A DNA stretch of 64,000 nt from Phaeobacter sp. QD34_24 (GTDB taxonomy: Bacteria; Pseudomonadota; Alphaproteobacteria; Rhodobacterales; Rhodobacteraceae). Below are positions 7,751-33,857 of this stretch, piece after piece; position 1 is the first letter of the stretch; every line of letters starts with the position of its first letter. The translations under genes and the position numbers were made by a program. The notes beneath the pieces were generated by a model. That model saw nothing but the letters and a program-made list of their open reading frames with translations, made no database searches and was not told the DNA's origin. Location: positions 149,625 to 213,624 of the forward strand of contig NZ_JARCJD010000006.1 in assembly GCF_028890115.1 (NCBI RefSeq), given 5' to 3'.

Positions 7751-8044
7751 GGGGCTCCCGCCCATTCGCGACATTCTGTTGAATGCCGCTCACGGTTGGG
7801 CCTGGCGCCGCTGGCGCGGCGCGGGGGGCTGGGGAAGCGGTTCAGGGGCTGGTCTGCCCCTGAACGCGCCATTGCGATTTTGTCGAAGAGTGCCGCCTCA
7901 AGGGTAAACCGCGCGTGCCGCGCGGCGGCCTTGCCGCCCTTGACCCGGCTTTCGTGGGGTGGAAGTGCGCCGCGGTAGCGGCGCCGGGCCCAAGGCTTTT
8001 TGCTGCATCTTCGATGCGGGGGAAAGGCGCGGGAGCCATCCCCG
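7751..8044. repeat. Structured intergenic element, copy 1 (complete)
   Basis: Fills the whole 311-bp gap between the convergent thioesterase and truA genes. In order: left arm starting GGCTCCCGC; hairpin GCGCCGC-TGGC-GCGGCGC (7805-7822); hairpin GTTCAGGGGC-tggtct-GCCCCTGAAC (7840-7865); a three-way junction closed by TCAAGGG (7898-7904) and CCCTTGA (7937-7943) containing CCGCGCG-tgc-CGCGCGG (7909-7925) and CGGC-ctt-GCCG (7926-7936); then an inverted right arm with GCGCCGC-GGTA-GCGGCGC (7967-7984), GCATC-ttc-GATGC (8005-8017) and GCGCGGGAGCC. The right arm is the reverse complement of the left arm in sequence and order. Confidence 0.85.
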
Positions 8045-8054
8045 CTTCGTGGGA

Positions 8055-8837
8055 CTAGCGAGGTGTGTCTTCGGGAAAGACCGGATCTGGGTAGTCGACG
8101 CGTGCAAGGTAGAGGCCCTGTCCGGGGCAGACCGGGCCGCAGGCGGCGCGATCGCAGGCCTCTAGCGCGGACTTTACATCAGCAGGGGACCAGCTGCCTG
8201 CGCCGACACGTTCCAGAGTGCCTACGAAGCTGCGCACCTGATTGTGCAGGAAGCTGCGGGCGCGTACGTGGAAGTGCACCTCGGGTCCGGTGAAACCTGT
8301 CACGCGTTCCACCCGCAGCTCGTCCAGCGTCTTGACCGGGCTTTGCGCCTGGCAGATGGACGAGCGGAAGGTGGTGAAATCGTGCCGCCCCAGGAGGTTG
8401 TTCGCCGCCTCCTGCATCGCTGCCACATCCAGATCATGGGATATCTGCCAGACCTGTCCCGCCTCATGGGTGGCCGGGGCGCGGCGCATCAGGAGGCGGA
8501 AGAGATACTGCCGTTCAACTGCCGTGAACCTTGCATGCCAGTCATCCGCGACCCTGGCGCAGGCGGTGATCGCCACCGGTGCCGGTTTCAGGTGATAGTT
8601 CAGCGCTTCGGACAGGCGGAAGGGATCCCAGTCCTTTTGCAGGTCGCAATGGGCCACTTGTCCCAGCGCGTGAACGCCCGCATCGGTGCGCCCGGCGGCG
8701 GCGATGGTATGCTCGCCCGGTTCCAGCCGCGCCAGCGCAGCCTCGATCGCCCCCTGTACCGAGGGCTGATCCTTCTGTCGTTGCCAGCCCGCGAAAGGGG
8801 CGCCGTGATATTCGACTTTCAATGCAAAACGCGCCAT
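8055..8837 (-). CDS. truA: tRNA pseudouridine synthase A
   Basis: A 260-residue TruA, which converts U38-U40 of the tRNA anticodon arm to pseudouridine. The catalytic Asp52 sits in the invariant GRTDAGVHALGQ motif; the start MARFALKVEYHGAPFAGWQ is the standard N-terminus. Length is normal for the family. Convergent with the thioesterase and divergent from the ycjX-like gene. Confidence 0.97.
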   Translation of the reverse strand: MARFALKVEYHGAPFAGWQRQKDQPSVQGAIEAALARLEPGEHTIAAAGRTDAGVHALGQVAHCDLQKDWDPFRLSEALNYHLKPAPVAITACARVADDWHARFTAVERQYLFRLLMRRAPATHEAGQVWQISHDLDVAAMQEAANNLLGRHDFTTFRSSICQAQSPVKTLDELRVERVTGFTGPEVHFHVRARSFLHNQVRSFVGTLERVGAGSWSPADVKSALEACDRAACGPVCPGQGLYLARVDYPDPVFPEDTPR

Positions 8838-8982
8838 GGCGGGGCGATAGCGCGGGCTGCGGCGCGAGACAAGCCCCTTGCCGCTGCGGCGCTCTGCACT
8901 GGTAACCCCGGGCCGGGCTGCCTATCTTGGTCCTGTCGGCGGAAAGGCCGGATCAGAATGCAAGGCAACAGAAGGCAGGCGC

Positions 8983-32498: not shown

Positions 32499-32501
32499 GC
32501 C

Positions 32502-33536
32502 GTGATGATTGATGCAGATCCGACCCTGCGCCCCGCGCCCCTGCCCGAGGACAGCGAACAGGACAACGACCGCGCCCTGCGCCCGCAAGGCCTGTCGGAA
32601 TTCATCGGTCAGGCCGAGGCCCGCGCCAACCTGCGCGTCTTTATCGAAAGCGCCCGCCGCCGCGGCGAGGCGATGGATCACACCCTGTTTCACGGGCCAC
32701 CGGGCCTGGGCAAGACGACGCTGGCGCAGATCGTGGCGCGGGAGCTGGGAGTGAATTTCCGCATGACCTCGGGGCCGGTTTTGGCCAAGGCGGGCGATCT
32801 GGCGGCGATCCTCACGAACCTCGAGGCGCGCGATGTCCTGTTCATCGACGAGATCCACAGGCTCAATCCGGCTGTGGAGGAGGTGCTTTACCCGGCGATG
32901 GAGGATTTCGAGCTGGATCTGGTGATCGGCGAAGGCCCCGCCGCCCGTACGGTGCGGATCGAGTTGCAGCCCTTCACCCTGGTGGGGGCGACGACGCGTA
33001 TGGGGCTTTTGACCACGCCGCTGAGGGACCGGTTCGGCATTCCGACACGGCTGCAGTTTTACACGGTGGATGAGCTGCATGAGATCGTCAGCCGTAACGC
33101 CCGCAAGCTGGGCGCGCCGGCGGATGACGCCGGCGCACGGGAGATCGCGCGGCGCGCGCGCGGCACCCCAAGGATCGCCGGTCGGCTCTTGCGCCGCGTG
33201 GTGGACTTTGCGGTGGTCGAGGGCGATGGAACGATCACTCGTGATCTAGCGGACGGTGCGCTGACGCGGCTTGGGGTGGACAACCTGGGCCTGGATGGAG
33301 CGGACCGGCGGTATTTGCGACTGATTGCCGAGAATTACTCAGGCGGGCCGGTGGGGATCGAGACCCTGTCTGCGGCGCTGAGCGAAAGCCGTGATGCGCT
33401 GGAGGAGGTGATTGAGCCCTACCTGTTGCAGCAGGGGCTGATCCAGCGCACTCCGCGTGGGCGGATGCTGGCGCAGAAGGCTTGGATGCATCTGGGGATT
33501 GCGCCGCCCAAATCGCAGAGTGATCTGTTTTCCTGA
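32502..33536 (+). CDS. ruvB: Holliday junction branch-migration ATPase RuvB
   Basis: A 344-residue AAA+ motor. Walker A GPPGLGKTT, Walker B LFIDEIHRL, and the C-terminal winged helix (LIQRTPRGRMLAQKAW) are normal. The annotated start is a GTG; the ATG three bases later is equally possible. Ends three bases before structured repeat copy 4. Confidence 0.96.
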   Translation: MMIDADPTLRPAPLPEDSEQDNDRALRPQGLSEFIGQAEARANLRVFIESARRRGEAMDHTLFHGPPGLGKTTLAQIVARELGVNFRMTSGPVLAKAGDLAAILTNLEARDVLFIDEIHRLNPAVEEVLYPAMEDFELDLVIGEGPAARTVRIELQPFTLVGATTRMGLLTTPLRDRFGIPTRLQFYTVDELHEIVSRNARKLGAPADDAGAREIARRARGTPRIAGRLLRRVVDFAVVEGDGTITRDLADGALTRLGVDNLGLDGADRRYLRLIAENYSGGPVGIETLSAALSESRDALEEVIEPYLLQQGLIQRTPRGRMLAQKAWMHLGIAPPKSQSDLFS

Positions 33537-33540
33537 GAGG

Positions 33541-33857
33541 CAGCCTCTCCCGCCCGTCGCTTTGGCATTGAAAATGCCGTGCTCCCGTTGGGCAGGGCGC
33601 CGCTAACGCGGCGCGAGATTTGCTGAGAGGTGTCTTGAGGAGCAGATTTGCTCCTCAAGACACCAGTCCCAGTATTGGCAGTCCTTTGCCGCCTCAAGGG
33701 TAAACCACGCGTGCCGCGTGGCCGCATGCGCGGCCCTTGACCCGGAAAAGGACAGGGGTACGCCCTGGGGCAGCCGCGTCGCGACAGCGGCGCCGCGCCC
33801 AAGGCCGCCAAGGGGTATCGGCGCAGCCGATGCATCTGCGGGCGCGGGAGCACGCCC
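33541..33857. repeat. Structured intergenic element, copy 4 (complete)
   Basis: Occupies most of the 390-bp gap between ruvB and the next gene. Left arm CTCTCCCGCCC; hairpins GGCATT-gaa-AATGCC (33564-33578), GCGCCGC-TAAC-GCGGCGC (33597-33614) and a perfect 16-bp stem (33629-33644 with 33649-33664, loop GATT); then a three-way junction closed by TCAAGGG (33694-33700) and CCCTTGA (33734-33740) with CCACGCG-tgc-CGCGTGG and CCGC-ATGC-GCGG; then an inverted right arm with GCCGC/GCGGC (33773-33791), ATCGGC-gca-GCCGAT (33817-33831) and GGGCGCGGGAGC. The last 60 bases before 33927 hold only a leader. Confidence 0.85.

Follow-up and report, generated by a model that had tools for sequence, protein, structure and literature searches.

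Covarying branched hairpins with a strand polarity at gene ends in Pseudophaeobacter and other Rhodobacterales

The DNA analysed here, called the window, is a single stretch of 64,000 nucleotides. We observed in it three copies of a compact branched core, each of which sits inside a mosaic of hairpins of up to about 300 nt that adjoins the 3' end of a gene. A fourth locus, copy 2, has no core match, neither by exact pattern nor by the covariance model (R1) used below. The features are as follows.

up to 7743, + strand: thioesterase-family gene (Pfam), ending left of copy 1
7753 to 8037, + strand: copy 1, full mosaic element between convergent genes
7796 to 7822 and 7967 to 7993: end modules of copy 1, inverted, 89% complementary
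7840 to 7865, + strand: hairpin B of copy 1 (sequence, hairpin search)
7885 to 7956, + strand: core of copy 1, three-way junction (model R1, 76.2 bits; sequence; RNA and DNA folding)
7898 to 7904 with 7937 to 7943, + strand: inner stem of that core, with linker at 7905 to 7908 and CC/CC at 7896 to 7897 and 7944 to 7945
7909 to 7915 with 7919 to 7925, + strand: helix 1 of that core, with helix 2 at 7926 to 7929 and 7933 to 7936
8055 to 8837, - strand: tRNA pseudouridine synthase-family gene (Pfam), right of copy 1
12049 to 12178, no strand given: copy 2, inverted end modules only, without core (repeat D5; inverted repeat 12060 to 12085 and 12153 to 12178; pattern matches)
22844 to 23066, + strand: copy 3, half element with end module, hairpin B (22953 to 22985) and core, without right end module
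23003 to 23073, + strand: core of copy 3, three-way junction, inner stem 23016 to 23022 with 23054 to 23060 (model R1, 66.2 bits; folding)
23142 to 23795, - strand: transaldolase-family gene (Pfam), ending just past copy 3
32502 to 33536, + strand: ruvB gene (RuvB by Pfam)
33547 to 33850, + strand: copy 4, full mosaic element just after ruvB, end modules 33588 to 33615 and 33775 to 33802
33629 to 33664, + strand: hairpin B of copy 4, fully paired over 16 bp
33681 to 33753, + strand: core of copy 4, three-way junction, inner stem 33694 to 33700 with 33734 to 33740 (model R1, 83.4 bits; folding)

Read on the strand of the core, the element starts at the stop codon of gene 1 and runs through GGCTCCCGCCC, a variable hairpin, GTTGGGCCNGGCGCC with hairpin A, GCTGAGA and hairpin B; about 20 nt, often with A[GT]TGT, then lead to the core. 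The right side of full copies is an inverted copy of the first part and reaches close to the stop codon of gene 2; half copies, such as window copy 3, have no such right part. Folded in silico, the stretch 33530-33850 around copy 4 behaves as a single unit (z -7.5). An exact match to the core of the end module, TTGGGCNNGGCGC, occurs 95 times in the own genome, in some cases within genes; when up to one mismatch is permitted there are 478 matches, against 268 for the control. By rough gene calls for the 65 end-module clusters in the fetched loci, the flanking genes are convergent for 25, codirectional for 22 and divergent for 2, while 15 clusters fall in called genes and 1 is without call; several of the clusters (e.g. 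L241, L245, L267, L270, L271 and L284) are minimal symmetric elements without core.

The initial annotation had reported that TCAAGGG pairs with CCCTTGA at 7898/7943, 23016/23060 and 33694/33740; this was confirmed from the sequence, and all three cores (copies 1, 3 and 4) have the helix arms that it gave. It had also stated that the enclosed helices have no linker bases between them, which is true of helix 1 and helix 2 and of helix 2 and the enclosing TCAAGGG/CCCTTGA stem, all of which abut, but not of the other side, where a 4-nt linker separates that stem from helix 1 (TAAA in copy 1, TGGA in copy 3 and TAAA in copy 4). From the outside inwards, the three cores have in common a variable outer stem, a CC/CC mismatch, the inner stem TCAAGGG/CCCTTGA, the 4-nt linker and two abutting hairpins. 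The outer stem, of up to about 11 bp, is the most variable and the most covarying part; over the 15 own-genome copies described below it has 11 pairs, helix 1 has 7 and helix 2 has 4. In copy 3 the mismatch reads CG/CC, so one additional G-C pair is possible there. The pattern TCAAGGG-N20..45-CCCTTGA occurs three times in the window, against a mean of 0.01 in 100 dinucleotide shuffles, none of which reached three. In silico RNA folding gave the junction as described on both strands of the three cores, except on the minus strand of copy 4, which favours a different internal pairing; DNA folding of the plus strands of the three cores gave the same junction.

In the own genome (3.92 Mb) the exact pattern was found at 15 places and the reversed-reading pattern at none. 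When these 15 copies were aligned in a single orientation over 73 columns, 94.2% of the cells paired and two-sided changes were present at 18 of the 29 pairs; none of 500 shuffles reached any of five measures, slid controls paired at 32-43%, and RNAalifold returned the same fold unguided. The inner stem is invariant in this set because the set was selected by the inner stem. A second set was collected with the covariance model and contains, among the matches listed, 104 matches, 102 of them distinct, from 99 sources. About 92.1% of its cells pair, with two-sided changes at 21 of the 29 pairs, in an alignment that is biased toward the fold because it was fitted to the model. Here the inner stem varies as well (TCAAGGA/TCCTTGA and TCAATGA/TCATTGA occur), every outer position of the core's outer stem is variable, and the linker is CAAG, TGAA or TAAA in 80 of the 102 copies. 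With one gapped row omitted, which leaves 101 copies, 99 have a mismatch at the outer C/C position and 83 at the inner one. On the frame strand, that is the strand of the core, 57 G-T and 65 A-C combinations among 2877 cells give no G-U excess.

The proposal that only a structure-selected or structure-copied sequence would vary in this way is borne out by these many copies with two-sided changes and by the orthologous copies, considered below, that compensate in place. Changes confined to one side of the helices, named beforehand as the outcome that would speak against it, did not occur across the many aligned copies. The earlier observation is correct and understated.

With the covariance model (E up to 0.001) at least 19 copies were found in the own genome, where 150 of 6319 candidates were scored, and, with at most 150 candidates per genome, at least 17, 19 and 14 copies in three congeners and at least 2 in one other genus. 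No copy was found in the remaining 16 of the 21 genomes among the at most 150 candidates scored in each. The exact pattern matches in 7 of 394 genomes of the family, one of these (G236) being an unstructured chance match. Relatives that match above 58 bits include, among the matches listed, Leisingera, Phaeobacter, Pseudophaeobacter, Epibacterium, Tritonibacter, Rubricella and Roseobacter sp. MED193 and SK209-2-6.

We grouped 69 copies from four congeneric (probably Pseudophaeobacter) genomes by their flanking DNA. At 12 of the resulting 20 sites every one of the four congeners has a copy, at 6 sites three of them do, at 1 site two and at 1 site a single one; the median flanking identity between orthologous sites is 82-87%. 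Changes were counted at sites with at least three copies, starting from majority Watson-Crick pairs and taking distinct changes per site and pair, over 68 of the 69 copies aligned; the loop-closing pair of helix 1 and columns without Watson-Crick majority were left out. Double changes numbered 24, of which 23 gave a Watson-Crick pair again. They are mostly isolated single pairs, and the outer stems at sites 4 and 13 are largely rewritten. Single changes on the frame strand numbered 40, namely 23 A-C, 8 G-T and 9 other; the bias of A-C over G-T (binomial p 0.011) is suggestive only, since an unpolarised count of site-and-column events gives 59 against 42 (p 0.11). Between orthologs, 600 of 616 pairwise cells are unchanged in the inner stem and 576 of 891 in the outer stem. 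Hairpin B, considered as a strand test, gave 44 G-T and 29 A-C events and was set aside because automatic folding mis-paired several copies. For a tRNA control of the G-U preference the loci contain only about ten tRNAs, and the G-U comparison made below leans on PMC5381666 instead. Because orthologous copies compensate in place, the pairing is not the mere copying of already paired sequence. Judged from these fixed sites and the pairing repaired in place, the core structure looks selected and not recently mobile.

The cores are also strongly oriented. Twenty 20-kb samples each from G002 and from the large contig of G003, two of the four genomes, delimited two GC-skew domains in each, and by this chromosome skew the frame strand coincides with the G>C strand for 18 of the 19 copies in G002 (p 7.6e-5 for 18/19 in one genome) and in 13 of 14 in G003, the single exception being the same orthologous site in both. 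By local skew with the element masked, the figures are 17/19 (G000), 15/17 (G001), 18/19 (G002) and 12/13 (G003, one copy being absent from the alignment). In the window, whose skew is +0.049, the three cores are all on the + strand. Local skew also places 30 of 35 copies on the G>C strand in other Rhodobacterales, a set of 32 of the 112 loci listed from which the G001 own-genome loci, loci without model match, L115 (Hyphomonadaceae MAG) and L061 and L142 (labelled Nocardioides) were left out. These polarity tests are not independent, because some sites of that last set may have orthologs within it or among the genus sites. End modules without core have a weak polarity (24/35, p 0.04). In most bacteria the G>C strand has the sequence of the leading strand, so the frame would be carried by the lagging-strand template; the G-rich strand here is presumably the leading strand, as judged from skew.

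Gene direction was considered as a source of the polarity and set aside. Neighbour calls, which are tied 2:2 for groups 0 and 3 and in a few cases depend on ORFs overlapping the element, class 12 of the 20 sites as convergent, 4 as '<<' and 3 as '>>', with 1 without call and none divergent. Outside the tied groups, three '<<' sites (1, 10 and 11) and three '>>' sites (2, 12 and 15) obey the same rule, so the direction of the genes does not explain it.

Outside the clade a collar CG-CC-TCAAGGG ... CCCTTGA-CC-CG was found, among the matches listed, with different internal hairpins in Streptomyces, Amycolatopsis, Nocardia and other actinobacteria, in Rhizobiales upstream of a DUF1419 gene, and inside ISL3-family insertion sequences of Paraburkholderia, Caballeronia and Hydrogenophilus; by eye, at least six listed collar matches are without hairpins (L067, L073, L101, L103, L165 and L169). 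The insertion-sequence copies agree for at most 34 nt past the frame and then diverge, and in 4 of 6 ISL3 loci tested the other inverted end lies about 1.3 kb away. One genome, G409, holds three inverted frame pairs, with members about 1.5 kb apart around a 380-aa gene. The motif A[GT]TGT stands before the core in 34 of the 69 Pseudophaeobacter copies (shuffles average 3.9, at most 10) and before the frame in 21 of the 43 actinobacterial copies (shuffles average 1.1, at most 5), the copies within each set being related; this agreement argues for kinship between the Rhodobacterales and the actinobacterial elements. The polarity is absent in these outside relatives (15/28 in actinobacteria, 9/14 in ISL3), and in Rhizobiales it is the reverse (2/13).

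From the directly supported observations, namely the fold with its two-sided covariation, the orthologous sites that are occupied, the in-place compensation, the mismatch that persists and the strand polarity, we tentatively favour, at somewhat less than an even chance, an old replication-oriented element acting at the DNA level, which probably spread by way of the lagging-strand template, would fold on it and is now retained by selection. The cores lie on the G-rich strand, in this reading probably because they once spread, and would still fold, on this single-stranded template. There the hairpin would form as DNA, and a putative protein would recognise TCAAGGG/CCCTTGA with its CC/CC mismatch. 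Dispersal may have gone through single-stranded DNA, as with IS200/IS605 and REP elements, and the copies may since have been retained for a function at gene ends, working perhaps like mosaic REP/BIME elements, membership in which is not established. We counted against a DNA-level element that the outside relatives lack the polarity, that no Y1 transposase was found in the four Pseudophaeobacter genomes and that the binding protein is only putative. The preference for A-C over G-T agrees as well with an RNA read from the other strand, the position at gene ends fits a role at RNA 3' ends, many actinobacterial loops have an RNA-like form (see below), and the coreless end modules are only weakly polar.

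The main alternative, possible but in our view less likely, is a transcribed RNA structure at 3' ends. Transcription of one of the converging genes, or of both, is predicted to extend into it, and it would then block read-through or stop 3' exonucleases, much as transcribed REP sequences or bidirectional terminators do. The convergent setting of 12 of the 19 called sites agrees with it, as do the strand-biased loops of the end-module hairpins (of 64 four-base loops in the module's own sense, 52 have T first and 48 have C last) and the occurrence within 12 nt after hairpin A of TTTT in 14 of 123 cases against 4 for AAAA. Br-REP1 of Bradyrhizobium, as described in a section of PMC5082802, provides a precedent: it lies where the 3'-UTRs of convergent genes overlap, and both strands have reads there. 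According to a part of PMC5381666, intrinsic terminators evolve by compensation, with G-U as the commonest intermediate; the compensation is as expected for such an RNA, but the frame strand has A-C over G-T. In addition, the strand polarity is not predicted by this alternative, and a terminator scan of the three window copies found 0, 1 and 1 against 0.3, 0.5 and 0.8 in shuffles. A general intrinsic terminator signature was set aside on this chance level and on the low frequency of TTTT. The core had been put forward at the outset as a candidate structured RNA: its covariation sustains the structured part, but RNA itself is not established, given the 23 A-C against 8 G-T changes and an orientation that tracks GC skew. 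It is possible that an RNA is read from the strand opposite to the frame, and all observations would also agree with a mixed history, in which the element dispersed as DNA and was later put to use as a 3'-end RNA.

It is improbable, in our estimation, that the copies are old non-autonomous mobile insertions with no present function, whose stem pairing is restored by template switching between the arms (palindrome correction). Such a relic would account for the inverted end modules, for the same collar in ISL3 insertion sequences and in the inverted pairs of G409, and for the nearly wholly rewritten outer stems at sites 4 and 13. Correction should, however, pair the C/C mismatch too, yet the mismatch persists, so that simple palindrome correction is not the whole story; together with the mostly isolated compensations, this led us to set it aside as sole cause. 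The outer stem drifts while the inner stem is almost unchanged, and 18 of the 20 orthologous sites are common to three or four species, which also speaks against a relic. A trans-acting structured RNA made from each core is very improbable: covariation, the compact junction and the A[GT]TGT linker conserved before 34 of 69 cores would suit it, but a sigma-70 consensus scan, other promoter types being outside its range, found no promoter-like sites in the three window regions, there are about 19 copies per genome with differing outer stems, the frame strand has no G-U preference, and the window has no Rfam match at the gathering threshold.

Rfam searches of 14 related loci gave one tRNA only and permissive scans nothing near the cut-off, and a known RNA family was rejected on these results. 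PF01797 (Y1 transposase, TnpA_REP/RAYT) had no match in the own genome or in the four Pseudophaeobacter genomes, with positive controls detected, and is present in 2 of 16 carrier genomes; REP/RAYT membership was rejected on this absence in the genus genomes searched. In a literature search that left subscription papers mostly outside, we found no description of the element, its letters or its occurrence in the clade.

Known systems resemble the DNA-level element that we favour in part. Br-REP1 is likewise a mosaic multi-palindrome repeat of an alphaproteobacterium whose palindromes also occur alone, but it occupies about 200 sites against at least 19 cores here, and the section describing it has no three-way junction, site conservation or replication polarity (PMC5082802); its consensus stem-loop is absent from the window. 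The REP/BIME/REPIN sequences with TnpA_REP outlined in PMC6006769 are similarly dispersed extragenic hairpins, mosaic and in inverted pairs, with stem mismatches. They differ in that here no Y1 transposase occurs in the genus genomes searched, the orthologous sites are common to species, the core's variable outer stem, the part compared, shows no conserved foot (GT[AG]G), and the copy number is low: the at least 19 cores of the own genome, from 150 of 6319 candidates scored, compare with typically more than 100 copies per genome in the account of PMC2817692. For IS200/IS605 elements, which move as single strands (PMC5371812; PMC6006769), orientation recapitulates replication direction and hairpins are the recognised structures (PMC5371812); an orientation following replication is suggested here by skew, but no transposase was found and the element is not mobile on the present evidence. 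Bidirectional terminators also lie between convergent genes and their stems also evolve by compensation (PMC5381666, in part), but here there is no general U-tract, the mismatch and the inner stem sequence are conserved, the structure is branched with replication polarity, and the intermediates on the frame strand are A-C rather than G-U.

The loops of the frame and of the end modules tend to T..C on one strand, hence to G..A on the other. Stable DNA loops include c(GNA)g and c(GNNA)g, and the G..A readings resemble them. Loop bases were not counted as evidence, because common descent may account for the tendency too and because, among actinobacterial loops, 36 agree with RNA c(UNCG)g when read forward on the frame strand and 0 when read in reverse.

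Extragenic palindromes are commonly taken for mobile debris or terminators; here they combine in-place repair of the structure with a nearly strict strand orientation, so that a cultivable marine clade offers a direct test between a selected DNA structure at the fork and a 3'-end RNA. We regard it as doubtful, though worth stating, that the elements are polar chromosomal sites of a new class, in which a branched hairpin of DNA carries a fixed CC/CC-TCAAGGG recognition collar, is oriented with replication and has been selected for its structure at fixed sites since before the four species split; the collar and A[GT]TGT would be common to the actinobacterial elements. The collar could serve as a bait for the putative binding protein; that it recurs in distant phyla would suggest a common recogniser. 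Across the phylum the frame is rare (3 of 299 genomes, 0 for the control), and its pattern was matched in five viral contigs.

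The frame of the core, that is the collar CC-TCAAGGG ... CCCTTGA-CC, was also observed in other genetic settings. In ISL3-family insertion sequences (L114, L097 and Paraburkholderia loci) it lies 34 nt inside the end of the element, upstream of the transposase, and is adjoined by a second hairpin. In L066, L107, L132 and other Rhizobiales loci, we observed that a conserved frame precedes a DUF1419 gene by about 110 nt, and the frame and this gene look as if they sit within an integrative element. In 11 of 13 loci, the Rhizobiales frame is on the strand opposite to the GC-skew strand that carries most cores of the window's clade.

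In one genome, G409 (L317-L319), complete frames form three inverted pairs with about 1.5 kb between partners, and these pairs flank a gene encoding a protein of 380 aa. A single copy of the frame (L089) adjoins a protein of the same length, and it is this L089 protein that was assigned to the DUF222 family. The frame pattern is also present in five IMG/VR viral contigs (L347-L351). Elements of a minimal, symmetric form were observed as well (L241, L245, L267, L270, L271 and L284); they have no core, and a single hairpin is common to their two end modules.

In each of the chromosomes of two congeners, G002 and G003, about 1 Mb of one arm is free of cores found by the covariance model; based on the positions of the model matches and on GC skew, this stretch adjoins the presumed terminus. 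Finally, Leisingera-like copies (L061, L142) occur in a record titled Nocardioides marinus DP1N28-1 (G429). This record is probably mislabelled, since its match positions are those of G249, a genome placed in the family of the window, Rhodobacteraceae.
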